NCBI RefSeq assembly: GCF_914768025.1
Contig: NZ_CAJZCE010000002.1
Span: 1 to 64,000 of the forward strand
Reading direction: 5' to 3'
DNA length: 64,000 nucleotides
Source: Snodgrassella gandavensis
GTDB taxonomy: Bacteria > Pseudomonadota > Gammaproteobacteria > Burkholderiales > Neisseriaceae
The first letter of the stretch is position 1. Each line of letters starts with the position of its first letter. The notes beneath the pieces are model-generated. The model had not been told where the DNA came from. It was given only the letters and a program-made list of their open reading frames with translations, and ran no database searches. This document shows, in pieces, positions 7,097-60,062 of the stretch. The position numbers and the translations under genes are program-made.

Positions 7097-9067
7097 GTGC
7101 GGAATACCGTAAAGAATCTTTTTGTCTGGCTGGTGCTGGCGTTAATTTTAATGGCCGCATTCAATGCCATAACTGAGAAAAAAGAGAGTAAACAGAAGAT
7201 TGAATACTCTCAGTTTATTCAGCAGGTTAACAAGGGTGAGATTGCCAGCGTAAATATTGAAGGTTCGGTAGTTAATGGCTTTCAGTTAAAAGGGTTGCGC
7301 AATGATAAATCATCTTTTACCACTAATGCTCCTACGCCACTGGAGAATGGTTTAATTAATAATCTGCTGGCCAAGAATGTTCGGGTTAATGTGATTCCGG
7401 AAGAAAAGCCCAGTATTTTAACTAATCTGCTTTACAGTATGTTGCCAATGCTGTTGTTGATTGGGGTGTTTTTCTATTTTATGCGCTCTATGCAGGGCGG
7501 CGGCGGTAAGGGCGGTGCTTTCTCTTTTGGTAAAAGCCGTGCCCGTCTTCTGGATAAGGAAGCCAATAAAGTTACTTTTGCCGATGTGGCTGGTTGTGAT
7601 GAAGCCAAGGAAGAAGTACAGGAAGTTGTGGATTATCTGCGTGCTCCGCAGCGTTACCAGACGCTGGGTGGCCGTATGCCTCGTGGTATTTTGATGTGCG
7701 GCAGTCCGGGTACAGGTAAGACTCTGTTGGCCAAGGCTATTGCTGGCGAGGCGCAGGTACCGTTTTTCAGTATTTCCGGTTCAGATTTTGTGGAAATGTT
7801 TGTTGGTGTAGGTGCTTCACGCGTGCGCGATATGTTTGAGCAGGCGAAGAAAAATGCACCCTGTATTATTTTTATTGATGAAATCGATGCGGTAGGCCGC
7901 CAGCGTGGTGCCGGCTTGGGTGGTGGTAACGATGAACGTGAGCAAACTCTGAATCAGTTGCTGGTTGAAATGGATGGTTTTGATAGCAATACGACAGTGA
8001 TTGTGATTGCAGCCACTAACCGTCCCGATGTGCTTGATCCTGCACTGATGCGTCCGGGTCGCTTTGACCGGCAGGTGGTCGTACCCTTACCGGATATACG
8101 TGGTCGTGAACAGATTCTGAAAGTACACGCAACTAAAGTGCCTTTGGATAAGTCTGTGGATTTGCCGGTGCTGGCACGTGGTACTCCTGGTTTCTCTGGC
8201 GCTGATTTGGCCAATCTGGTAAATGAAGCTGCACTGTTTGCCGGTCGTCGTAACAAGACCAAAGTTGATATGAGTGACTTTGAAGACGCCAAAGATAAAA
8301 TTTATATGGGGCCGGAACGTCGCTCTATGGTGATGCATGAGGATGAAAAGAAAGCCACTGCTTACCATGAATCTGGCCATGCGGTTGTTGCTGAGACGCT
8401 GGATTTTACTGATCCTGTGCATAAGGTGACGATTATGCCACGTGGTCGTGCACTGGGGCTGACGTGGCAGCTACCGGAACGTGATCGCATCAGTATGTAT
8501 GAAGACCAGATGCTCAATAAGATTTCAATTTTGTTTGGTGGCCGTATTGCTGAGCAACTGTTTATTGGTCGTGTTTCTACCGGTGCTTCTAATGACTTTG
8601 AACGCGCTACTCAGCTTGCCCGTGACATGGTGACGCGTTATGGTATGTCTAAGAAGATGGGGCCAATGGTGTATGGTGAAAATGAAAACGAAGTATTTCT
8701 TGGGCGTTCGGTAACTCAGTCGAAAAATATTTCTGAAAAAACCATGCAGGAAGTGGATGCTGAAGTACGTCGTATCCTTGATGAGCAATATGCTGTTGCT
8801 TACAAAATTCTGGATGAAAATCGGGATAAGATGCATGCCATGGCCAAAGCTTTGATTGAGTGGGAAACCATTGATCGTGATCAGGTGCTGGAAATCATGG
8901 CTGGCAAAGAGCCTAGTCCACCGAAAGATTTCAGTGAAAATGTGGTTAAGGATGCTGAAGCTGAGCAACCTGTTGCTGAAGAAACTGCTGCAACTGATTC
9001 TGAGGCAGAAGCTGTAAGTGATGCTGAAACTAAAGCGTCAGAACCAGAGCAGAAATCACAGCAATAA
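7097..9067 (+). CDS. ftsH: ATP-dependent zinc metalloprotease FtsH
   Basis: FtsH is the membrane-bound AAA+ protease that removes misassembled membrane proteins and regulators. The 656-residue product has a first span near residues 8-22, a periplasmic domain, a second span near 111-130, Walker A GSPGTGKT at about 201, Walker B IIFIDEID, the second-region-of-homology arginines (MRPGRFDR) and the zinc motif HESGH at about 424. The tail is acidic and alanine/glutamate-rich. The start is GTG at 7097, supported by TAGGAG at 7082-7087; no ATG fits. Confidence 0.98.
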
Positions 9068-9082
9068 TGTAATTGAGTTTTC

Positions 9083-9109
9083 AACGGCAGCTATAGCTGC
9101 CGTTTTTTA
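9083..9109 (+). terminator. Rho-independent terminator of ftsH
   Basis: Nine-base stem AACGGCAGC / GCTGCCGTT (9083-9091, 9096-9104) with loop TATA, followed by a T run to 9108. It starts 15 bases after the ftsH stop codon, so folP needs its own promoter. Confidence 0.9.
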
Positions 9110-10045
9110 TACCTATTTTTTTATGATAATGGGCATGTGGTTGTGATGGTTTGGTTAATATATGACATTCTATAATCTGCATATACGCTTAGTGAAATGG
9201 CTTAGGCAGTTAAACAAGCATTGGAAAACAGGCTGGCTGAAAGATGATAATTTTGCCTCAGCTAGCAATAGGGAATGCTAAGGCAATATGATTGTTAGCA
9301 GCCCGGATAAATCCGGATAGTTCAGTTATGGTGATAAATTAATAATTTTATTTAATTGTTTGTGGATTGATGCTGCGATTCGATTTGATTGAATATATGC
9401 CAATTTTATGGATGAAAGTATTTGGATAGTAGATTCTGGTACTGGTTAACAATAAATAATATTGGCCTGATATATATTATTGATATAAGTATGTAAATCT
9501 GTAAATTTAATATTGTTTCTGATATTGGGTATGATGTTGGGGCGATTATTGCACTCAGGCCATGATTTCTTTTTAATCCTGTATCGGCGGTGTTTGCGCA
9601 AGCAATCTGCAAGTAAACAACAGTGTTGGCAAAGGTAGTGGCAATAAGATAATAGTGGTTTAAATCAATATTATTGCAGGATTATTCTGATACTATGCTG
9701 TTTTTGTATAGGCAGGAAATTCTGGCTGGTATGAAGTAACAGACGGGGAATGTTGGATGTCAGGCAAGTGTTACTTGCTATGTATAAGCATAGGGCTGGT
9801 ATTTGGTGTTAAGTATATGACTTTGGATGTTTTCTAAATGATTGTTACGCTGATGATTGGCGCTATGTGATATTTAGCCGGGTATGGTTAGCGTCGATTA
9901 GGTATTTGTTTAACTCATAACGGATTTGATGCTGAAAAATGCCGCAGGCTGGTTTGAGGTACTTTGCAGTTGATAGCGGTGCTATCAGCAGTGAGTGCAG
10001 GCAAATGCAGTTGTATTGGCTATTGTTGAAAGATAATGATTGATT
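9110..10045. other. Long non-coding spacer between ftsH and folP
   Basis: About 930 bases without a convincing gene. A 39-codon frame at 9162-9281 (plus) is open but has no ribosome site or family resemblance. Small palindromes occur near 9305-9318 (CCGGAT/ATCCGG) and 9976-9990 (GATAGC/GCTATC). The region may be an eroded gene or a long leader of folP; nothing in it can be named. Confidence 0.4.
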
Positions 10046-10906
10046 ATGGATAGTTCGATGCAAGTCTACTGGCAGTGTGGCCGGTTTCAGATTGATCTGG
10101 TTCAACCTAAAATTATGGGGATTGTTAATTTAACGCCGGACTCGTTTTCTGATGGTGGCCGTTACAATGCTTCGTTGACGGTGGCGTTAAATCATGCTGA
10201 GCAGTTGCTGAAAGATGGGGCTGATATTCTGGATATTGGCGGGGAAAGTTCACGTCCGGGCTCGGCTTTTGTGTCGCCGCAGGAGGAGTGGGCACGTATT
10301 GAACCGGTATTGCGTGAATTGATCACTTGGAATGTGCCGTTAACGGTGGATACGCGGCGTGCATGGGTGATGCGTCAGTTATTCGAACAGCAGCTTGTGG
10401 ACGGGATTAATGATATTCAGGCACTGGAAGATGCTGATGCTGTGACTTTGCTGGCGCAGCAGCAGGATGTGGGAATATGTCTTATGCATATGCAGGGGCA
10501 GCCGGAGAGTATGCAGCATAATCCTGTTTATGAGGATGTGGTGCTAGAGGTTGGTCGGTATTTGCAGCAGCGGGTGCAGGTATGTGAACAGGCTGGTATC
10601 ACCCGCAGGCGCCTGACGGTAGACCCGGGCTTTGGTTTTGGCAAAACCCTTGAGCATAATATTGCGTTGATGCAGGATTTTGCAGTATGGCAGACACTGG
10701 CGGGGTGTCCGGCGCTGATTGGTGTGTCGCGTAAAACGATGATTGGTTTGCTGACTGCTGAAACAGACCCGCAGCAGCGGGTTGCTGGCAGTGTTGTGGC
10801 GGCAGTGGCAGCAGTGGCACGCGGGGCTGCGATTGTACGGGTGCATGACGTACGTGAAACCCGGCAAGGTTTGCAGGTATGGGCTGCTTTGGGTGCTCGT
10901 GTGTAA
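10046..10906 (+). CDS. folP: Dihydropteroate synthase
   Basis: FolP condenses 6-hydroxymethyl-7,8-dihydropterin pyrophosphate with p-aminobenzoate to form dihydropteroate in folate synthesis. The 286-residue TIM-barrel protein has the pterin site signatures [16 protein letters not shown] and [12 protein letters not shown], the TVDT strand, DPGFGFGKT and, near the end, GVSRKTMIG in place of the more usual G-x-SRK-x-F/M-I-G. The start is taken at ATG 10046; a TTG at 10040 in the same frame is less likely. folP followed by glmM behind ftsH is the same order as in many proteobacteria. Confidence 0.96.
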
Positions 10907-11170
10907 TGAAAGAATATTTGCTTTCTCTGTATAAGCTGTTTTTATGATTTTGTTATTCTGGAAGTATTCGGATTATAAATAAAGGTGGCTATAAGATATG
11001 TATTGGCGATAGGCAGATGATTCAGTGTTCGGGTTCATGCTTTGGCTGGAAAAGTATGCTGTATTTGGGGATGTTGGTTGAATAAGTTTTCAAATAGTAT
11101 TTTATTTACTGACTGAACGGCTATGCCTGTTCTACAATACCAATCTTGTTTTAATTGGTTGGAGCAGGTG

Positions 11171-12514
11171 ATGGCAAAGAAATATTTCGGTACTGACGGG
11201 ATACGTGGTGAGGTAGGCAAGTTTCCGATTACGCCTGAGTTTGTACTGAAATTGGCTTATGCCGCTGGTCATGTTTTAGTGCAGCATGGAACTGATCATC
11301 AACCTACAGTGCTGATTGGTAAGGATACGCGTATTTCTGGCTATATGCTGGAAGCGGCGATGGAGGCCGGTTTTACTGCGGCAGGTGTGAATGTGCTGCT
11401 TACTGGGCCTCTGCCTACGCCGGGGGTGGCGTATTTAACCCGTGCGCTGCGTCTGGATTGCGGGGTGATGATTTCTGCTTCACATAATGCTTATCACGAT
11501 AATGGGATTAAATTTTTTGCTGAGGGTGGGGTGAAGCTAAGTGACCATCTGGAGCTGGAAATTGAAGCAGAACTGGAAAAACCAGTGCAAACGGTGCCTT
11601 CCAGCCAGCTTGGCCGCGCTAGGCGTATTAATGGTGCGGTTGACCGTTATATTGAATTTTGCAAGTCTACTTTTCCCAGCCATCTGAATTTGCGTGGTTT
11701 GAAGCTGGTGGTAGATACTGCCAATGGTGCAGCCTATGCTGTGGCTCCCAAGGTTTTCCATGAGCTGGGTGCGGATGTGGTATGCATTGGTGATAAGCCT
11801 GATGGCTATAATATCAATCAGAAAATCGGTGCCACCTATACTAAATCATTGCAGGCAGCAGTATTACAGAATGAGGCTGACTACGGTATTGCGCTGGATG
11901 GTGACGGCGACCGACTAATGATGGTGGACAAGGTTGGCAAGGTCTATGATGGTGATGCGCTAATTTATGTTATTGCCAAGGCACGTGCTGCAGCTGGTTG
12001 TCTGCATGGTGGTGTGGTTGGCACGGCTATGACCAATCTGGCGATGGAACAGGCATTTAAACGGCTGGACATTGATTTTGTCCGCGCTAAAGTAGGTGAC
12101 CGTTATGTGCTGGAACAGTTGCATCAGCACCGATGGTCGCTGGGAGGTGAGGCCTCTGGCCATATTGTTTGTCTGGATAAACATAATACTGGTGATGGGA
12201 TTATCGCAGCTTTACAGGTCTTTGCAGCCTTGCAGGATTTACAGCAGGATTTGGCCAGTATACTTACTGACTGGCAGCCTTTTCCGCAAACCATGATTAA
12301 TGTCCATATTGAACCGGATCAGGACTGGCAGAGTATTGCTACACCGGTGGCAGATGAGGTGACTGCACAACTTGGCGAAAATGGACGTGTGGTACTTCGT
12401 CCATCAGGAACAGAACCGGTGGTGCGGGTGATGGTGGAAGCACGCCAAACTGAAGTTGCGCGGCAGGCAGCCGAAAAAATTGCTGATGCAATTGTGGCGG
12501 GTTTGGCGGATTAA
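11171..12514 (+). CDS. glmM: Phosphoglucosamine mutase
   Basis: GlmM converts glucosamine-6-phosphate to glucosamine-1-phosphate for UDP-GlcNAc, needed for peptidoglycan and lipopolysaccharide. The 447-residue product has [10 protein letters not shown] at the start, the phosphoserine loop [12 protein letters not shown] with the catalytic Ser at about residue 104, the Mg site DGDGDR, the sugar loop GGEASGH and the phosphate-binding [12 protein letters not shown] at the end. The start at ATG 11171 follows GGAGCAGG at 11161; a longer frame from 11123 is rejected because MAKKYFG is the family N terminus. Confidence 0.97.
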
Positions 12515-43668: not shown

Positions 43669-44736
43669 AATAATCATCAGCATTTGCAGTTAGTGAATAT
43701 CACTGGCTGCATCTGCCGCTAATCATTTAGCTGTAACGGTAATTTATTGAACTTAAAACATTCCGTAACCGGAAAAGCCGTTTAATCTTTCAAACTTTCG
43801 TGAATAAAATATCTCGATAATCCAGAAGCTGTCTATTCATCTGAGTATTAACTACAGAGCATTCAATGACTAATAAGTTTTAAATATATCATACTGCTAC
43901 GCAGCGCACTGTTTTTAACTTTGAAGTAAAATTTTTTTAATATCTGTATTAAAAAAGATAAGTAAAACTAAAATGAAGATTTAATAATATTCCAATTCAA
44001 ATTAAAATAACCATAAATCTTAATAATTAATTAATGATATAATCAAATGTATTTACAAATTAATTTGTATAAATAAATTTAAGTTTTTTGTTGTACAAAT
44101 TGAGTTTAGATTTAGAATATCGCAAATTTTATGAACTGAAAGGATAGTAAGTACCAAGTTAAACCAGAAAAATCAGTTTTAAATAAATAACTATTCAAGT
44201 TTAGTTATAGAATAACTTATGTTTATTTTATAAAAAAAGGCTATAAGATTAACACAAGTTCACATATAATAGTTTATAGCTTGCCCCTTATATAAAGCAA
44301 GCTTTACCAATGGTTGTAATATTACGTGTTAATTTACGATTGCCTGATTGCATATACGGTGATTTAGGCGCAAATTAACCCATGTACAATCATTTTCTTG
44401 TACATGACGACATGGTATCATCAACGTTTACCCTATAGAGATATCATATTGAGCAGTTGTAGTGTAGTGCTAGTAGTTGATGTTGCACCAGTAAGCTTAA
44501 ATAGCAACTTTGGCTTAAATTTATAATGTTAGTTTGGAATATATTTAATGTGTTGAATTGCTACTCCTAATATATACACATACTAGATTATATCGCAAAA
44601 GTTATTTTTAGCAAGGTTTAATTTAATTTTATGTAGCTAAATGTTGTATCTAATTAAACTTTAAATTGTAAATGATTGTTTAATAATAAATTTTAAATTA
44701 AACCTTACATTGTTTTTATTTGAAGGTAATTCAAAT
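43669..44736. other. 1-kb very AT-rich spacer before the S24 regulator gene
   Basis: No open frame with a family match. The sequence becomes strongly A/T-rich from about 43860 to 44730. It holds a weak palindrome AGCTTGC/GCAAGCT (44278-44303), an eight-base palindrome TTGTACAA near 44091 and a clear inverted repeat at 44381-44406 (listed separately). It looks like the flank of an accessory element; the regulator's own promoter and operators are expected here. Confidence 0.4.
44381..44406. repeat. Inverted repeat CATGTACAA-N8-TTGTACATG
   Basis: Perfect nine-base arms (44381-44389 and 44398-44406) around an eight-base spacer. No T run follows, so it is not a terminator. The TTGTAC core recurs as the palindrome TTGTACAA near 44091 in the same spacer. 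Operator sites for the S24-type regulator encoded 330 bases downstream are one possibility; that is inferred. Confidence 0.5.
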
Positions 44737-45480
44737 ATGGAAAATTTTAACGTTGGCTTTGCCTCCAGAATGCAGGAAGTAGTGGATATTCTCGGCAGTG
44801 TTTCTGAGTTGTCCAGAAGAGTAGAGGTAGCGTACCCAACAGCATCAAAATGGGTTAGAGATGGAGCAGAACCCAGTACTACCAATCTGATTAAAATTGC
44901 TCGTGTTGCACAGGTAGAAATAAAATGGCTGGCAACAGGCATAGGGCCAAAAATTGATCAGAAAAGTGCAAAGTATTATGCAGAACTGCCTAATCCACTG
45001 GCAAAGAATACTCCTATCGGTGAAGCAGATTGTGGTTATGGTAACCATCACCATGCAGTTTGTGCCAGCGATTATGCATTTATTCCAGTATGTTCAACCG
45101 AAAACCCGGATAATATTGAAGCCACGGAAAGCAAAGCAATGTGTACCATTGCCTTTAACCGTAACTGGCTGGAAAATTATCTGAATGTTGATCCGCAAAA
45201 ACTCAGTACCCTGATTGTCAAGGATGACAGCATGACCGGTGTACTCAACGATGGCGATCATGTCCTGATTAATCACAGTAAAAAAGCTGGAGGCGATGGC
45301 CTATATGTGTTACGCATAGGAAAGAATATTTTGGTAAAACGCACCCAGCTCAAACCAAATAATCAATTGCTGGTAACATCAGCCAATAATGCTTATGAAC
45401 CATTCACCATCGATTTAGCTAATAGCGAACAGGATTTTGAAATTATCGGCAAAGTAGAGTGGTTTGGTCGCAAAATCTAA
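44737..45480 (+). CDS. Phage-repressor-like regulator (HTH plus S24 LexA-type peptidase)
   Basis: The 247-residue protein has an N-terminal XRE-type helix-turn-helix (about 20-65; SVSELSRRVEVAYPTASKW) and a C-terminal S24 peptidase/signal-peptidase-like domain with the self-cleavage Ser in VKDDSMTGVLNDGDHVLIN and the Lys in GLYVLRIGKNILVKR. Such proteins switch off phage or stress genes and may self-cleave after DNA damage. A GAAGG lies 11 bases before ATG 44737. No other phage structural genes are near except a TraR-type zinc finger at 46030, so it may be a domesticated or orphan repressor. Confidence 0.85.
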   Translation: MENFNVGFASRMQEVVDILGSVSELSRRVEVAYPTASKWVRDGAEPSTTNLIKIARVAQVEIKWLATGIGPKIDQKSAKYYAELPNPLAKNTPIGEADCGYGNHHHAVCASDYAFIPVCSTENPDNIEATESKAMCTIAFNRNWLENYLNVDPQKLSTLIVKDDSMTGVLNDGDHVLINHSKKAGGDGLYVLRIGKNILVKRTQLKPNNQLLVTSANNAYEPFTIDLANSEQDFEIIGKVEWFGRKI

Positions 45481-46029
45481 ACCGCTAAAGTACATCATAT
45501 CTGGCTGTATGCATTGTAGCTGGTAAACCAGAAACCACTAATTAAACCAGAATAAAGTCTGTTTATCGGTTATAGCGACTTTTATACAATTAGAAAAATA
45601 CAGCATAGCGCTAGCCTGCAACGAAAAGCAGATGCATGCAGATAGGTGCTAATAAATGCATGTTCATAATGTAGACAAATCAGGCTAGTAGTGTTTCAAT
45701 CATCCATATTGCTGTTAGCGGCAACGGATAAAACTAATATACTTCGTGGCCTAGTTAGTTATGATTATCAAACCGCTTTTCTATCGGGCTGATTGAGCAC
45801 TTTCCGCAGATCAGACTAATTGTGCCAAGCAAGTTTTGCAAATTCAAATACAGAAATAACACCCGTATATCAGTTGTAGGCTTAAAGCTTTATACTGACT
45901 TCAAACACTAAATTTCTAGCCATTACCATCGCTTTGTTCAATAAATCTTTATCATTTAAATAGCAATTGTGTGAATTTTTGCATGGTGCAAGCCATTCAA
46001 TCTGTGCCAGATAGCCCAATTCAATTGGC
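45481..46029. other. Spacer after the S24 regulator
   Basis: 549 bases with no gene that I can support. A minus-strand frame at 45882-46121 overlaps the zinc-finger gene in another frame and shows no domain; I do not call it. No terminator hairpin with T run is visible behind the regulator. Confidence 0.4.
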
Positions 46030-46302
46030 CTAGCGTAGCTGACTGTCCTTACTGCCACGCCGGTTATATAGACTGAATGCTTTCTGTATTTCCTTATCGC
46101 GTTCGGTTTGGCAGCCAACACAAAAGCGCACGCCCTGAATGGCCTGACGGCGTGCTAATGGAATAGCTTCACCACATTCTTCACAAAATTCTGCACTTTC
46201 TGTTGCATACTCCATCTGCTGACGTACATGATTGAGGGCATCTGCTATTGTGCTCTCTATCTGCTGATTCACAGCATCATCTGAAGCCCATCCACTGGCC
46301 AT
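46030..46302 (-). CDS. TraR/DksA-type zinc finger protein
   Basis: The 90-residue protein has a helical N-terminal part (VNQQIESTIADALNHVRQQ) and a four-Cys zinc finger CEECGEAIPLARRQAIQGVR followed by CVGCQ, the signature of TraR/YbiI-type short DksA relatives that bind the RNA polymerase secondary channel. These small forms are typical of phages and plasmids. Together with the S24 regulator it suggests leftover phage genes. Start ATG 46302. Confidence 0.85.
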   Translation of the reverse strand: MASGWASDDAVNQQIESTIADALNHVRQQMEYATESAEFCEECGEAIPLARRQAIQGVRFCVGCQTERDKEIQKAFSLYNRRGSKDSQLR

Positions 46303-46955
46303 AATAAATTCCTTTAAATATCAGTATATTGAAATGGAGATTGTTCATTTGATTTTCAATATGCTGCTGATTAATATCATTATGGTTAGACTGGATGGTT
46401 AGATAAAATCACTGCCACAGCCATCCAGAAAAAACACAAGATAAACGTACATGCCGGCTGCGAGTAATGATTGAAATGCGAGCGGAAAAAAGGCTCTTGT
46501 TATAGTTGAAAGCGCTTGTAACTCATTTGTCCGCGCGATAGTTATAGTGTTGTGTACAAATTTTATTAAATAATATTTAGTATACAACAATTTACATCAT
46601 ATTTTGTATTGATTGTCATATTGCTGCGTTACTTTGTAATGAATCAGCACCTGTTAATTATTCAATCCATTTGCTTACAGGGCGAGCTTGAAAGACCAAT
46701 ATGTATATTTAGAAAATAATCATTTAACCATCAGCTTTGAAATTATTCCTGAATTTTCCATTGATCAGTTTACAGTAACAGGCAGTTGGTATTGTGTATT
46801 TGGCATATATTGATTATTTACTACTAAAATTAAATTAGCCTATCTAAATCATATATTTATTTACTTCTGGCTGGATTGCAATATGCGCTATGGTTTTATA
46901 GACTGATTTTGATTTCTCTTGTTAAATCAAAATATTGTTGAAAAGGATGTGAATC
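46303..46955. other. Spacer before the copper-storage protein gene
   Basis: 653 AT-rich bases. A plus-strand open stretch at about 46658-46813 encodes some 50 residues (containing YVYLENNHLTISFEII and SIDQFTVTGSWY) without a start codon and could be the tail of a decayed gene; I do not recognise it. A 63-codon minus-strand frame at 46399-46590 has one hydrophobic segment but no support. No clear copper-regulator (CueR) palindrome was seen upstream of 46956. Confidence 0.35.
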
Positions 46956-47285
46956 ATGGATGCACTGAAATTTAAGGAATGTGTAGAAGCATGTAACTGT
47001 TGTATAGCCTTGTGCCAGTATTGCTCAACAGCCTGTCTACAGGAAGATGATGTCAAAATGATGGCTAAATGCATCAGTCTGGATCTGCAATGTGCTGAAA
47101 TGTGTGCACTTGCAGTTAATTTTATGTGTAAGAACAGTGATTTTGTCGCACAGGTATGCCAGCTATGTGCTCAAGTATGTCGCGCTTGTGCGCAGGAGTG
47201 CGGGCGGTTTGATATGGGGCACTGCCAGCGCTGTGCCGAAGCCTGTAACGCCTGTGCAGATAAATGCATGGCTATGGCAGCCTGA
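46956..47285 (+). CDS. Cysteine-rich four-helix copper storage protein (Csp3-like, DUF326)
   Basis: The 109-residue protein contains 21 cysteines spaced along predicted helices (patterns such as CVEACNCC, CQLCAQVCRACAQEC and CQRCAEACNACADKC), the hallmark of DUF326 copper storage proteins, which line the core of a four-helix bundle with Cu(I)-thiolates. There is no signal peptide, so it fits the cytosolic Csp3 type. AAGGATG lies just before ATG 46956. It has its own terminator and stands alone in an accessory-looking region. Confidence 0.9.
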   Translation: MDALKFKECVEACNCCIALCQYCSTACLQEDDVKMMAKCISLDLQCAEMCALAVNFMCKNSDFVAQVCQLCAQVCRACAQECGRFDMGHCQRCAEACNACADKCMAMAA

Positions 47286-47304
47286 TTTATTTAGAGATTA
47301 TCTG

Positions 47305-47330
47305 GCCATTGTTGCAGACAATGGCTTTTA
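47305..47330 (+). terminator. Terminator of the copper-storage protein gene
   Basis: Eight-base stem GCCATTGT / ACAATGGC (47305-47312, 47318-47325) with loop TGCAG and TTTT after it, about 20 bases behind the stop codon. Confidence 0.75.
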
Positions 47331-47427
47331 ATATGTGCCACATAAAATTGTTGCCAGAAAACACATCAGCCGGTGAGCTTAATCGACTAAATTCCAATGA
47401 TAGCGCCTTGTATGGATTACAAAGCAT

Positions 47428-47459
47428 ACAAGGTTAGCCAGATTAATGGCTAACCTTGT
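47428..47459 (-). terminator. Hairpin downstream of dapB
   Basis: Thirteen-base perfect stem ACAAGGTTAGCCA / TGGCTAACCTTGT (47428-47440, 47447-47459) with a six-base loop, 23 bases behind the dapB stop on the minus strand. The T run after it is poor, so it may act with Rho or as an mRNA-stabilising stem. Confidence 0.6.
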
Positions 47460-47481
47460 CGTAAAGATACTCCGGCTATGT

Positions 47482-48682
<1,201 letters not shown>

Positions 48683-55826: not shown

Positions 55827-56462
55827 ATGCTAAAGCAACAACCCAACATCTGGATTAACGGGCCGGCAGGACGGCTGGAAACCATCTATCTACCGGCACA
55901 GGGCACCGCCCGTGGTGTAGCCGTGATTAATCATCCTAACCCATTACAGGGCGGGCTGAATACCAACAAAGTCGTACAGACTGCTGCCAAAGCACTTACC
56001 GGACTGGGCTTTCACTGCTATCTGCCCAATCTGCGCGGTGTGGGCAATAGCGACGGCGAGCATGATTATGGCCGCGGTGAAGTAGCAGACTGCCTTGCTG
56101 TAGTTGATTTTGCCCGTTCCCAGCATCCAGAAGTGAACAAACTGGTGTTGTCCGGCTTTTCCTTTGGCGGCTATGTTGCCTTATTCAGTGCCTTAACTGC
56201 CCGTCCGGATGCCTTACTGCTGATGGGTCCTGCGATTGGCATGTATCCTGTTGATGCGCCCAATGCCTACAATCCAGCCACTACCTTACTGATTCATGGT
56301 GAAAAAGACGAAGTAGTACCATTGCAAAACAGCATGAACTGGGCAGAGGCGCAGGATTTACCTGTACTGGTTGTGCCCGGCTCCGGCCATTTTTTCCATG
56401 GCAAACTGATTTTGCTGCGCCAGTGGATTGAGCGGCTGTTTCCAGCGTTACTGGTTGAATAA
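55827..56462 (+). CDS. Alpha/beta hydrolase
   Basis: The 211-residue protein has the alpha/beta-hydrolase pattern: NHPNPLQGG near the oxyanion region, LRGVGNSDGEHDYG, the nucleophile Ser in LSGFSFGGYVALF, the acid in IHGEKDEVVPL and the His in PGSGHFFHG. It belongs to the small cytoplasmic dienelactone-hydrolase-like group (YitV/YfhR-like). Substrate unknown. It begins five bases after the ferredoxin gene, so likely cotranscribed. Confidence 0.88.
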   Translation: MLKQQPNIWINGPAGRLETIYLPAQGTARGVAVINHPNPLQGGLNTNKVVQTAAKALTGLGFHCYLPNLRGVGNSDGEHDYGRGEVADCLAVVDFARSQHPEVNKLVLSGFSFGGYVALFSALTARPDALLLMGPAIGMYPVDAPNAYNPATTLLIHGEKDEVVPLQNSMNWAEAQDLPVLVVPGSGHFFHGKLILLRQWIERLFPALLVE

Positions 56463-56753
56463 TAAAAATATTACTACCCTGAATGCTTAAATAAAATATA
56501 AGTAATTAAATATCAATACACTAATTTTAAAAGAGTTGTTCAGGGTAAATCAGAATTTACCTGCTCAGAATCTTATATTGGCAAGCACACCTATTAAACA
56601 ATATAGCCAACAGCTGAAAATAGGCAAGCCAATATAAAATTAATAAAGCGCGCTATCAGTTGATTACAGAATGTGCAGTACGCATCAATCCCTGATTGAA
56701 AATCACATCTGTACAAAATTGACGATTACATAGATAAACGGCTATTAATTATT

Positions 56754-57320
56754 TCATGCATTAGCGTTACCAATAGCGTCAACTATATCATATATATATA
56801 TCTTTTCTCGTTCAAAATCATGCCCCTCAACGCCAAAAACCGATGTGTAGGCGATCATACCTTCAAGTATTAACATAATCAGGCAAGCCGCCTGCTCAGA
56901 TGCTGCGGTTGCGCCCAGCCATTGAGAAATTGAAGTCTGCATCCATAGTTTGTGTTCTCTAACAATAGAGCATATTTCTTCACTTCTATTGCCATATTCA
57001 GCCTGAGCACGCACAAACATGCAACCGCGATAGTCGTTATCGTTAAACCACCTGATATGCCATGAAATAAGCGCATTAATTTTATCTTTTTTCTCCGAAA
57101 ATACCGCAATCACATCTGTAATTGACTTTTTAAAAAAAGCATTCCTCCTAAGTAATACTTTACTCACCAGCCCATTTTTGTCACCGAAATATTTATATAA
57201 CGTTCGTTTCGATACTCCTGCACGTTCTGCAACGAGCTCCAGACTAACAGCGCAGTAACCAAATTCATTAAAAAGTGATTCAGCAGCAGCAAGTATCTTA
57301 TCAATAATTTCAGATTTCAT
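56754..57320 (-). CDS. TetR-family transcription regulator
   Basis: The 188-residue protein has an N-terminal helix-turn-helix (LFNEFGYCAVSLELVAERAG and VSKRTLYKYFGDKNGLVSKV) and a helical ligand-binding C-terminal domain typical of TetR repressors. The start is ATG 57320 (MKSEIID); an upstream frame start at 57359 is less likely. It is divergent from the HPP membrane protein gene, and palindromes in the shared spacer match a likely operator, so it probably represses that gene and itself. The ligand is not evident. Confidence 0.88.
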   Translation of the reverse strand: MKSEIIDKILAAAESLFNEFGYCAVSLELVAERAGVSKRTLYKYFGDKNGLVSKVLLRRNAFFKKSITDVIAVFSEKKDKINALISWHIRWFNDNDYRGCMFVRAQAEYGNRSEEICSIVREHKLWMQTSISQWLGATAASEQAACLIMLILEGMIAYTSVFGVEGHDFEREKIYIYDIVDAIGNANA

Positions 57321-57420
57321 TATTTTGACGTTTTTAGCATATTTTTGTGATTTTATCACAATAACACCATTTTGGTTAATTATAAATATTATTTGACCAT
57401 AAATGGTTTTGAAAATACAA

Positions 57421-57476
57421 TAAGTAAACGCAATCGTTTATTTATTGTATTTATTTAAACAATAATGTTTACTTAT
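57421..57476. promoter_or_regulatory. Palindromic operator-like repeats between TetR and HPP genes
   Basis: TAAGTAAACG-N4-CGTTTATTTA (57421-57444, one mismatch between arms) is followed by TAAAC-N6-GTTTA (57455-57470), with GTTTACTTA repeated at 57468-57476. Repeated GTTTA/TAAAC half-sites in a divergent TetR spacer are the expected form of a dimeric operator. The second copy lies just before the HPP ribosome site. Confidence 0.65.
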
Positions 57477-57494
57477 TCATTACAGGAGGAATTC

Positions 57495-58046
57495 ATGTTA
57501 GTAAAAATTAAAGGGGGAGAGGCCATGCAGCCCCGACCTAATGCAGTAGCGATATTGAGAGGTTTTACTGGTGGCACTTTGGGAATTTTCGTGTTACTCC
57601 TGATAACTTACTGGAGCGGTACTTTAGCAATCATGGCTCCATTTGGTGCAACATGTGTATTATTATTTGCCGTACCTAAAGCACCATTAGCTCAGCCAAG
57701 AAGTGTTATCGGGGGGCATTTTATCTCGGCTTTAGTAGGGATTTTGTTCATCAATTTATTTGGTAATGGAATACTATCCATAGCATTAGCGGTTGGCATA
57801 TCCATTGCTTTAATGCAATTTTTACGTGTAGTCCATGCCCCTGCGGGTGCAAATCCTATTCTTATCATGATGTCAGGAATCACTGACTATTCATTCTTGT
57901 TGACACCCGTACTGATAGGTTCAGTTCTGTTAGTTCTTGTCGCTTTAATAGTCAATAATATCGGAGCCGGAACCCATTGGCCCTGTTATTGGCTGGGCTA
58001 TCATTCAGGTATGGATAACAAACATATAAAATCAAAAGGGGGTTAG
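57495..58046 (+). CDS. HPP-family integral membrane protein
   Basis: The 183-residue protein has four to five hydrophobic helices and the family motif region VVHAPAGANPILIMMSG (the H-P-P-A-G region written HAPAGA here), with MAPFGATCVLLFAVPKAPLAQPRSV before it. HPP proteins include a chloroplast nitrite transporter of plants and related cyanobacterial proteins; the bacterial substrate is not established. The start is ATG 57495 behind AGGAGGA at 57484-57490. Controlled, by layout, by the divergent TetR. Confidence 0.85.
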   Translation: MLVKIKGGEAMQPRPNAVAILRGFTGGTLGIFVLLLITYWSGTLAIMAPFGATCVLLFAVPKAPLAQPRSVIGGHFISALVGILFINLFGNGILSIALAVGISIALMQFLRVVHAPAGANPILIMMSGITDYSFLLTPVLIGSVLLVLVALIVNNIGAGTHWPCYWLGYHSGMDNKHIKSKGG

Positions 58047-58266
58047 CGTGCCTGTATGATTTGGCAGAATGGTTAATAACTCTCGGTATCTAAAGACCTC
58101 ATCAGGTACTAACTAATATCACGCCAATGCAATATGCAACACTGAAACAGACTGCTTAATTTTTTGGATAAGTTTTGTACTAGTAGGGTATTTAGATTAA
58201 AAATTTTATTATTGTACTTTATCCGGTTAATAAAAAAGGTATAACCATGATTATGCCTTTTTTAAT
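58047..58266. other. Spacer between HPP gene and small frameshifted gene
   Basis: About 220 bases, AT-rich, with no feature I can support. Together with the pseudogene and the spacer after it (58439-58730) it forms a nearly 700-base stretch without an intact gene before the PLD protein. Confidence 0.35.
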
Positions 58267-58438
58267 TTATACATTACAAATACGCTTGGAAGCACTGAGA
58301 CTTCCATCTTGCAAACAGGTTTTATACCCGCACAATAAGAAATACCGCCTTTTTTCCAGAGCAGGGCAAACAGCCTTTGACTTGTGCAATGCTAACCATG
58401 AAAGTAGCTGCGGTTATAATTAATAGCCATTTTTGCAT
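58267..58438 (-). pseudogene. Small exported Cys-rich protein, broken by two single-base losses
   Basis: ATG 58438, preceded by AGGAG, opens a signal-peptide-like stretch (MQKWLLIITAATFMVSIAQ) then KGCLPCSGKK. The frame then shifts. In the next frame it continues GGISYCAGIKPVC, and in the third frame DGSLSASKRICNV and a stop at 58267. Adding one A to each of two A runs (near 58359 and 58307) restores a continuous protein of about 56 residues with the pattern C..C.G..GGISYC....VCKDGS.S.SKR.C, known from small exported proteins of many Proteobacteria. Either recent decay or base-call error in A runs. Confidence 0.6.
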
Positions 58439-58730
58439 CACTACTCCTGTTATTTTAATTGATAATTAACGTTATTATAAATAAAATAAAATATGGATAT
58501 GATTGTTAATATTATGTTTTTATCAAAATATAGCTTATTGATACATTATCTTTTATGTTAGAAGCATTTTTATTTTGTCTAAATAAAGCACTTGTTGGAC
58601 AAAGCCTATAACAATACCGGCTAAATAATAAGTGATTTGGCTTAAGATTAATCAACAAAAAAGTTGTTGTAAATGACCATGTGCTATAGTCAGCACATTA
58701 AACATCTAAATGTTAAATTAGAGGATAAAT

Positions 58731-59699
58731 ATGAAAATTTTGAGAGAAGATTGTCTGCGTGAAATCTTACTACAAAATTATAATAAAAAAATTACTATTG
58801 TTTCTGCTTTTATAAGTGGAATTGAATCTGATATAAAACAATTACTTGATCAACATAATCAGGTTGAACTTATTATAGGGACAATCAATGCCTTTTCTTC
58901 TATCGATTTGATAGATTTTTGCATTGAAGAGGCTGAGGAGAATAATAATTTTAAATTTTATATTGATTTCAGATATGACGATAGCGTTCATTGGAAGCTC
59001 TATATGATTGAGCCAGATATTACTATTATAGGAAGCGCCAATTTTACCCAAAAAGGGCTGAAGCTTGTTCGAGATACATGCCTTTACATACAGAATAAAA
59101 AGTTGTACTTAGACTACTTAAAAGAAATTGCTGAAGTAAAAGTATTAGATAAAGTATTAGATTGTAAGGGTAAAAATTTTAATGATGAACTAGAAAAATA
59201 TAGAAAAAAACATTTAAAATCTAGAGTTTGGTTAAATTCAAATAGTACAGATTCAAGTTTGGAAGATTATTTAAAACAAGAAATTCCACCTGAATTAGCA
59301 ATTTTAATTTGGGATAGATATATGGATGAGGAGGAAATGAAATATATTGAAGCTAAAGTTGGAAAAGAAAATTCTTGTGAGCAACTAAATTTTGATAAGC
59401 ATGAATGCTTTAAGATTGATCGTGAGTATGAAAAAGACTATAGAGAAAATGAGATTATTTTATGTATGAATAAACGGGGGAATAAAATCAAGTTTTTTTG
59501 TTGCCAGAAAATTGTCGTTGATAAATCAAAAGGTAATATGTATCTTATTGATTTTTTAAAGAAGAGGTCTGAGGGGCCATTTAAATTAACCAAAGAAATT
59601 AAAAGTAGGCTTAAGGAAAAAGCTCTAGAATGGAGCAAAGATGAAACAGATAAAGTTAAATTAAGCTATGAAGATTTAAAGGAATTATTACAGAATTAA
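58731..59699 (+). CDS. PLD-type (HKD) nuclease-like protein, AT-rich orphan
   Basis: The 322-residue protein has one phospholipase-D-type half-site: HWKLYMIEPDITIIGSANFT, matching H-x-K-x4-E/D-x6-GSxN, within a domain like that of single-HKD nucleases and NgoFVII/BfiI-type restriction enzymes (residues about 5-125: ITIVSAFISG, VELIIGTINA, KFYIDFRYDD). Single-site enzymes work as dimers. Residues about 130-322 are charged, Lys/Glu-rich and unrecognised. Codons are markedly A/T-biased compared with neighbours such as purM, so recent acquisition is likely. A GAGG lies before ATG 58731. No methylase or partner gene adjoins it. Confidence 0.65.
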   Translation: MKILREDCLREILLQNYNKKITIVSAFISGIESDIKQLLDQHNQVELIIGTINAFSSIDLIDFCIEEAEENNNFKFYIDFRYDDSVHWKLYMIEPDITIIGSANFTQKGLKLVRDTCLYIQNKKLYLDYLKEIAEVKVLDKVLDCKGKNFNDELEKYRKKHLKSRVWLNSNSTDSSLEDYLKQEIPPELAILIWDRYMDEEEMKYIEAKVGKENSCEQLNFDKHECFKIDREYEKDYRENEIILCMNKRGNKIKFFCCQKIVVDKSKGNMYLIDFLKKRSEGPFKLTKEIKSRLKEKALEWSKDETDKVKLSYEDLKELLQN

Positions 59700-60062
59700 T
59701 GATTTTAATTTTTTTAGTGTCATATGTCTGGGTTATTTATTATGATGGCTGTAAGAAATTATCTATTTCTTTGATATTGTATCCTTGTTTGCACAGGAAT
59801 GATTAGTTTATTTAGGCACCATTCTGATTTATCTGAATCATTTAATAATATTTGAAGTGTTAATAAAGAAATAAGATTTTGTATAACTTGTCTGTGGAAA
59901 GCTTCCTAAGGAGAACAATTTTACTTGCGACAGACGAAAGTGCTTTTCACTACAAAATTAATTAGTTATCAGTATTATTTGACCAGATTAATTTGAAAAA
60001 AGCCCAGAAATTAGCGCAAGCTGATACTGGGCTTTTGATTTATATTCTGTAGATGTAATTTT
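59700..60062 (-). terminator. Spacer with the purM terminator at 59998-60036
   Basis: The stem AAAAGCCCAG / CTGGGCTTTT (59998-60007, 60027-60036) with a T-rich end on the minus strand (TTTTTTC) ends purM transcripts. The remainder of the 363-base spacer is AT-rich; I see no gene and no clear terminator behind the PLD gene. Confidence 0.75.

Follow-up and report, generated by a model that had tools for sequence, protein, structure and literature searches.

Can a nuclease gene that stands alone, with no methylase beside it, belong to bacterial immunity? The question is raised by a gene at 58731..59699 (plus strand) of the window, the 64,000-nucleotide stretch of Snodgrassella gandavensis DNA that was analysed here. 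It runs from ATG to TAA, encodes a PLD-superfamily protein of 322 amino acids for which full-length homologues were found, and has a likely ribosome-binding site, AGAGG, at 58720..58724 (plus strand, called by eye), six bases 5' of the ATG. Because relatives exist that are 32-39% identical across the whole protein, and because the median dN/dS of the Pseudomonas orthologues is 0.12, the reading frame is more than a chance one. A first-pass annotation had described its product as an orphan nuclease with one PLD half-site and an unrecognised C-terminal half, and had proposed either a solo anti-phage nuclease or a recognition-module fusion.

With a GC content of 0.28 and a GC3 of 0.23, the gene has the lowest values among the listed ORFs of the window. 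The corresponding values for purM are 0.49 and 0.45, which confirms the striking A/T-richness that had been reported next to that gene. The gene looks foreign. Two other AT-rich stretches were seen in the window. One, at 381-2336, holds a small lipoprotein ORF, a HEFGH-containing short ORF and other short ORFs, and is possibly a metallopeptidase/immunity remnant; the second, at 44000-47500, includes a phage-repressor-like ORF (44710-45480, by eye).

The PLD nuclease half covers residues 1 to about 160 (58731..59210, plus strand), as delimited by Pfam, the structure model and superposition with Nuc (1byr) and BfiI (2c1l). Pfam PLDc_2 matches residues 18-134 with 40.9 bits (cut-off 27, E 2.2e-10), and the N-terminal PLD domain of RE_NgoFVII with 24.7 bits (cut-off 23.8). 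Both are above their cut-offs, so the single NgoFVII/BfiI-like half-site claimed earlier is upheld. The RE_NgoFVII score falls slightly under the cut-off in the homologues from Aeromonas diversa (locus L017) and from a phage contig (L035).

Each chain carries one HxK/GSxN set, reading H87-W-K89...G101-S102-A-N104. The H87-W88-K89 codons of the HxK catalytic motif lie at 58989..58997 and the N104 codon of the GSxN motif at 59040..59042 (both plus strand), placed by the sequence and the family alignment. In that alignment H87, K89, G101, S102, R114 and D115 are invariant in all 22 of the 22 rows with a residue present, and N104 is kept in 21 of 22. The canonical Asp of HKD is Glu94 in the window protein, at a position that varies across 23 rows (E in 19, S in 2, K in 1 and N in 1, the last being a C-terminal fragment). 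D115, whose codon is at 59073..59075 (plus strand), corresponds to the NREN-motif Glu in Zucchini (4ggj), according to a PDB profile match and the family alignment.

AlphaFold2, given a 23-row alignment, predicted the whole protein with a pLDDT of 83.8, falling below 50 at residues 104-113. In VIA-align, Nuc 1byr superposes on the predicted PLD half with Z 14.0 (rmsd 3.5 over 133 residues), followed by SauUSI (13.2), BfiI 2c1l (12.4) and the NgoAVII R-protein (11.5). Sequence searches gave fainter signals. A PHROGs profile search of the window protein found nothing significant, PDB sequence searches gave no E below 0.02, and a PDB profile search listed eight PLD proteins with weak scores, six of them chains of Zucchini/MitoPLD, a known RNase, at E 0.035 or worse. 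DrmC was the best PADLOC match of this half (22.6 bits), next to a weak half-match to DpdK. On the predicted structure, the assignment of the N-terminal half as a single-HxK PLD nuclease with the Nuc/BfiI/SauUSI fold is supported.

The C-terminal domain comprises residues 170-322 (59238..59696, plus strand) and is modelled as a stand-alone, weakly PUA-like fold. It had been called unrecognised, and rightly so: no Pfam or NCBIfam model scored above its curated cut-off, and PADLOC and PHROGs yielded nothing. When 19 family members were scanned with Pfam, the best match for this half was to a beta-propeller model, seen in 7 of the 19 with E 0.002. A beta-propeller identity was rejected, and this and the other weak Pfam matches were taken as spurious.

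Folded alone, the C-terminal part is predicted with a pLDDT of 86.3 and a pTM of 0.82. After a short first helix, the model has six strands in the order beta-alpha-beta-alpha-beta-beta-beta-beta-alpha. Foldseek returned no significant match for it; the first row was 3iuw (E 0.085), which we take to be an ASCH-type protein, and the next two were DrmA of DISARM. VIA-align placed DrmA (7s9v chain A, residues 13-119) on top with Z 5.2, above Lon-N (at most 4.1), ASCH 5guq (3.9), THYN1 (EVE; 3.8 and 3.6) and YTH (2.9-3.4), all of them low values (5.2 or less) of a kind that may reflect a mere common arrangement. Of the 50 VIA-align rows, 36 presumably belong to the PUA superfamily (Lon-N 8, ASCH-type 4, EVE 2, YTH 12, ATP sulfurylase N 8, RsmE-type 2), a count that amounts to about six families, with many rows repeating one protein. 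The other rows are, on the same assumption, 10 phage or secretion tail-type proteins and 4 others, including two DrmA.

No true EVE or ASCH domain was recognised by sequence. Pfam PF01878 (EVE) has no match in the window protein or in the 19 members, and hhalign of alignment A4 against EVE (14 sequences) and ASCH (5 sequences, from five of six loci, one having been omitted for a stop in its reading) gave a probability of 0.1%. The PUA-like claim is therefore kept at the level of the fold only, where it is somewhat better than evenly probable. The B3 domain of BfiI and the NgoFVII C-terminal DNA-binding domain are absent among the listed Foldseek and VIA-align matches of the C-terminal model, and neither has a Pfam match. 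A Gly-Asp pair shared by most of the relatives (G in 20 and D in 19 of 21) is Asn-Glu in the window protein, which counts against the reading preferred below.

The earlier idea of a recognition-module fusion is supported to this extent: the C-terminal half appears from its confident separate prediction to be a domain of its own, which could be a recognition module. Sequence profiles link it to neither EVE nor ASCH readers. As a side observation, the N-terminal part of DrmA is what the C-terminal domain resembles best, and DrmC is the best PADLOC match of the PLD half; this is either coincidence or possibly a shared reader. The accessible text of the DISARM structure paper PMC9142583 and of PMC12458937 and PMC11090510 states no link between the DrmA N-terminus or PLD partners and PUA domains.

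The label "orphan" did not last. The protein is a member of a family with representatives in a single Pseudomonas group, Methylococcales, A. diversa, Gilliamella, a pair of enterobacteria and a phage contig, and the homology extends through the C-terminal half. A scan of 84,980 species yielded 19 loci, all in Gammaproteobacteria: 12 in Pseudomonas and one each in Methylotuvimicrobium buryatense, A. diversa, two Methylococcales MAGs, Gilliamella sp. wkB108, Pseudocitrobacter vendiensis and an Escherichia sp. The scan used two short peptide patterns and so missed diverged members, of which one, L058, was found otherwise. Its Pseudomonas loci overlap with a set of genomes from that genus in which 23 of 25 carry the gene, and the two counts were not summed.

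Outside Pseudomonas the distribution is sparse. Two of the 61 genomes searched first have the gene. Both are among the 14 of the window's genus, one being the source of the window itself and the other G003, in which the gene is broken. Broader samples, with the own genome included, gave 4 of 398 for the phylum, 6 of 369 for the class (one further full-length match and four to the PLD half only) and 3 of 200 for the order (two being PLD-half matches). In the order of the Methylotuvimicrobium genome (G687) the figure is 3 of 151. Among 5426 E. coli genomes a DNA search found no copy and nothing beyond a match of 92 bases in two of them, and tblastn against phage records and against plasmids found nothing. 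In a viral collection, two of four protein scans found a single contig, L035, and the other two none.

The closest relative is the Gilliamella copy (L030), which is split in two frames and is 51% identical in its best segment, the pieces having 49% and 37%. Gilliamella and the window bacterium belong to different orders, and both are probably bee-gut symbionts. Broken or split copies also occur in G003 (CDS identity 91.3%, reading frame broken by three indels), L027 and the enterobacterial L034. The alignments differ in their members: L034 is excluded from all of them, L058 is only in A4 because it was found after A3, L005 is omitted from A3 as coming from the same genome as L019, and A4 omits L020, L023 and L032 as well as the N-terminal fragments L027 and L030.

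In the near relatives G002, G009 and G010, the blastn match to the window stops at base 58079 and resumes at 59932-59937, leaving 58080..59931 unmatched. The left edge of this segment is soft, since a multiple alignment keeps some similarity to about 58150 after a 35-base gap; G002 also has a second partial HPP gene copy with a short inverted match at window positions 58092-58182. A wider variable region, 56463..60062, is defined by the nearness of purM to the hydrolase gene in two other genomes. The alpha/beta-hydrolase gene, at 55827-56462 in the window, adjoins purM in G006 (about 0.6 kb apart) and G011 (about 0.16 kb), and in G008 one ORF of 353 amino acids stands between them. A single contig of G010 carries both flanks, separated by a lipoprotein gene and an interrupted reading that contains HExxH. 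The flanks of G002 and of G009 fall on different contigs, G002 having a HExxH ORF and lipoprotein genes, and G009 repeated lipoprotein genes on the purM side. The PLD gene sits in a variable island between the alpha/beta-hydrolase gene and purM.

Other contents of this site are of separate interest. At the same place in relatives (L067, L083, L084, L094, L097, L098) there is a metallopeptidase-like HExxH ORF in G002, interrupted in G010, and a lipoprotein gene of about 145 amino acids in one or several copies in G002, G009 and G010. Together they may represent a toxin and an immunity array that is expanding.

No attC pattern was matched in the window, so the locus at 58731-59699 has no integron cassette signature. 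Such a signature can be found in A. diversa. There (L017) the PLD gene lies between attC-type sites at 9785-9905 and 10888-10930, and the end of its ORF runs into the second. The second site matches TAACAAA-N25..45-GTTAG (0.02 expected) and folds back into a hairpin that has an extrahelical base (z -4.25); the first was called by eye from its ends only, and its folding (z -0.75) is no better than that of shuffles. PADLOC identified the neighbours as PDC-M50A (E 5.2e-31), ThsB (2.4e-66), PtuA (3.1e-161) and PtuB (1.2e-99), so the array sets a Thoeris-type TIR gene (ThsB) and Septu (PtuA/PtuB) alongside the PLD gene. No integron integrase scored above the cut-off in the A. diversa genome, which therefore holds an attC cluster without a detected integrase. 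It was also seen that PDC-M50A stands directly 5' of the ThsB-type TIR gene (8719-9775), with no ThsA among the ORFs read; together they may form a TIR system of two genes that travels as a single cassette.

The same 43-base attC occurs, identical, in L017 (10888-10930) and in Methylotuvimicrobium (L016, 12162-12204), a sign of cross-order cassette exchange. In L016 it lies downstream of the PLD gene, after ORFs of 113 and 265 amino acids (11056-12149) that have no Pfam or PADLOC match, and an integron integrase is found about 118 kb away in the same genome. The 265-aa ORF is uracil-DNA-glycosylase-like, by eye only. An attC-like stretch directly 3' of the PLD gene in L016 was rejected, being unsupported by folding (z 0.2).

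Further settings vary. On the phage contig L035 a lone PLD gene (GC 0.31) precedes genes for the terminase small and large subunits and the portal; an attC scan of viral contigs found none. The two Methylococcales MAG loci have a FitA-like RHH and a PIN-like ORF (L025) and HicA with PIN (L027). Both enterobacterial copies lie downstream of ilvA, the intact one (L031) next to a LysR-type gene, ilvY by position, and the broken one (L034) at the end of its locus. Beside the Gilliamella copy lie genes for a DnaQ-type exonuclease and a DUF454 protein.

Homologues are thus not confined to metabolic operons: an attC array, a phage and loci adjoining toxin-antitoxin genes are among their sites. The predicted association with defence genes was borne out only partially. 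The A. diversa array, the phage copy, the two toxin-antitoxin MAG loci and the variable island speak for it, but known defence systems adjoin just one of the seven non-Pseudomonas host loci whose neighbours were read or scanned. Neighbours were scored with PADLOC for L017 (seven genes, including the PLD protein), for two genes of L016 and for two each at L025, L027, L030, L031 and the Pseudomonas locus L019, and by eye elsewhere; the matches of the other scanned neighbours were generic, such as an ABC-F ATPase or a DnaQ-type exonuclease. The PLD protein itself is not listed in PADLOC-DB as a defence system and has only the weak DrmC and DpdK half-matches there.

The reading preferred here, held tentatively and somewhat short of even confidence, is that of a mobile, single-gene, methylase-less, restriction-like nuclease with a PUA-like reader of marked nucleic acid. 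PLD-superfamily enzymes such as Nuc and BfiI have a dimeric active site and cleave without metal through a phosphohistidine intermediate. By analogy with these two, the N-terminal domain, with one half-site per chain, would dimerise to complete one active site, and cleavage would be metal-independent, via a covalent phosphohistidine intermediate. The PUA-like domain would read a feature lacking in host DNA, most likely a modified phage base, and carry the nuclease dimer to the foreign molecule. Under this proposal no methylase is needed because only marked nucleic acid is cut. The gene would spread in integron-type cassettes, aboard phages and within chromosomal islands.

Ordinary restriction-modification was rejected, as the earlier annotation had already done: among the window ORFs inspected by eye, no methylase was recognised beside the PLD gene. 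A toxin-antitoxin pair was likewise set aside, no partner gene having been seen adjoining it. Integron cassettes are described as reservoirs of small defence genes, including type IV restriction, in the accessible part of PMC12409362, and PUA-nuclease fusions are named as typical methylase-less enzymes in that of PMC7897488. Moderate confidence attaches to a defence role, which would follow from locus context and from the habit of integron cassettes of banking small defence genes. A modified base as the target is suggested only weakly, by analogy with PUA-nuclease enzymes and with EVE-PLDc fusions. A larger claim can be made with clearly less assurance and is rather doubtful: that the proteins form a new family of compact, NTP-independent, modification-dependent nucleases, combining a PLD domain with a new PUA-superfamily reader that has no detectable sequence relation to EVE or ASCH, borne on cassettes and phages and shared by bee-gut symbionts of different orders.

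The evidence from Pseudomonas complicates the picture. Besides its presence in 23 of 25 genomes of the genus of G204, the gene has an upstream flank common to 14 of 20 fetched genomes and a downstream flank common to 16 of 20, the rest differing or reaching contig ends. At L019 it is flanked by an ABC-F-type ATPase (Pfam ABC_tran and ABC_tran_Xtn) and an OprD porin. Besides the overall 0.12, median NG86 dN/dS is 0.19 in the PLD half and 0.055 in the C-terminal part. These are crude values from 136 pairs of 17 equal-length CDS, and between distant pairs dS may be close to saturated. Constraint on the gene in Pseudomonas is evident, and it is greatest on the C-terminal domain, which favours a working reader whose ligand does not change. 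The same constraint speaks against a role in defence that is purely accessory. So strongly conserved a reader could serve equally well for a fixed host ligand or for a phage mark, and near-universal presence, mostly with common flanks, looks more like a resident function. The notion of a solo anti-phage nuclease accordingly has a mixed outcome, with mobile and defence contexts in its favour and near-universality in one genus against it.

The least improbable of the alternatives, though still unlikely, lies outside defence: a resident enzyme of nucleic-acid maintenance, serving repair, recombination or the turnover of RNA, which went to fixation in a single Pseudomonas lineage and which mobile elements picked up only now and then. 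The 23 of 25 genomes, the mostly common flanks and the purifying selection, strongest in the C-terminal part, all fit it, as do several other loci with a single copy amid housekeeping genes. Against it stand the patchy occurrence elsewhere (2 of 61 and 4 of 398 with the own genome included, and 3 of 151 in the order of G687), the copies in an attC array and a phage, and the broken or split ones in G003, L027, L030 and L034.

A smaller chance is given to RNA as the substrate. Many PUA, ASCH and YTH domains bind RNA, and a PUA-like domain that did so could direct the PLD half to cut RNA, possibly in abortive infection. The YTH readers among the PUA-like rows and the Zucchini/MitoPLD chains among the weak PDB matches (six of eight) point this way. 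The structural neighbours of the PLD half, however, include many DNA nucleases (Nuc, BfiI, SauUSI, NgoAVII), and no antitoxin or regulator was seen by eye beside the window gene.

It is less probable again that the protein is a selfish or phage-serving nuclease, acting in superinfection exclusion or host-DNA breakdown, of which the bacterial copies are decaying remnants. The lone copy ahead of the terminase genes in L035 and the four broken or split copies would be expected of such a gene, but the Pseudomonas copies are intact and constrained, and only one phage contig, and none of the phage records, contains it. A sequence-specific type II-like enzyme of the BfiI/NgoFVII kind, its methylase lost or elsewhere, is the least probable: the RE_NgoFVII match barely over the cut-off and the Z values of BfiI (12.4) and the NgoAVII R-protein (11.5) recommend it, but no methylase was seen by eye at the window gene or the homologous loci read, intact lone copies in many Pseudomonas genomes would be expected to kill an unprotected host, no Pfam match ties the C-terminal half to BfiI/NgoFVII enzymes, and L017 and L035 score slightly under the NgoFVII cut-off.

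If the preferred reading of a reader-guided, restriction-like nuclease is true, type IV-like immunity gains a two-domain, one-gene enzyme that has a new reader and is carried about by integron-type arrays and phages. A strongly conserved reader would imply one fixed target, whose modification a small set of modified DNAs could reveal. Near-fixation in one Pseudomonas genus would make that genus a natural setting in which to study when a defence gene turns resident.

A published description of this PLD plus C-terminal family was not found, a weak negative since most subscription journals fell outside the search. Several known systems share parts of the design. The BfiI, NgoFVII and NgoAVII R enzymes also have an N-terminal single-half-site PLD domain, joined to a C-terminal recognition part, but the window gene has no visible partner methylase or helicase and its C-terminal domain was not matched to theirs by sequence. 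SauUSI, a type IV enzyme with PLD, helicase and SRA-type domains, superposes well in its PLD half (Z 13.2), and the accessible text of PMC12707154 presents it as a modified-DNA nuclease with its reader at the C-terminus. It has an ATPase/helicase between PLD and reader, whereas the window protein, at 322 amino acids in total, has none. DrmC of DISARM, despite being the best PADLOC match, scores only 12.3 bits against an NCBIfam cut-off of 133; a DISARM or Dpd component was rejected on these weak family scores and on the lack of DrmA/DrmB or other partners among the ORFs read by eye.

Single-chain enzymes come closer. In the available portion of PMC11037411, the PLD-wH fusions Aba4572I and CbaI combine a PLD nuclease with a sensor and are proposed as type IV, as is suggested here for the window protein; their sensor is a winged helix for 6mA, while the window model is a six-stranded alpha/beta domain. 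VcaM4I (EVE-HNH), as far as the consulted part of PMC7897488 describes it, is, like the design proposed here, a single gene joining a PUA-superfamily reader to a nuclease with no methylase, but it has an HNH nuclease and an N-terminal true EVE domain where the window protein has PLD and its C-terminal domain. The nearest design is that of the EVE-PLDc fusions in the accessible text of Bell et al. 2020 (PMC7641849), which are also named in that of PMC8281217: a PLD nuclease with a PUA-superfamily domain, predicted to be modification-dependent and methylase-less, as is proposed here. The window protein differs from them in having no EVE Pfam match or profile link, its C-terminal domain being a separate, unnamed and weakly PUA-like family. 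EVE-PLD fusions had already been predicted (Bell et al. 2020), and the window family would be a further variant of that design.
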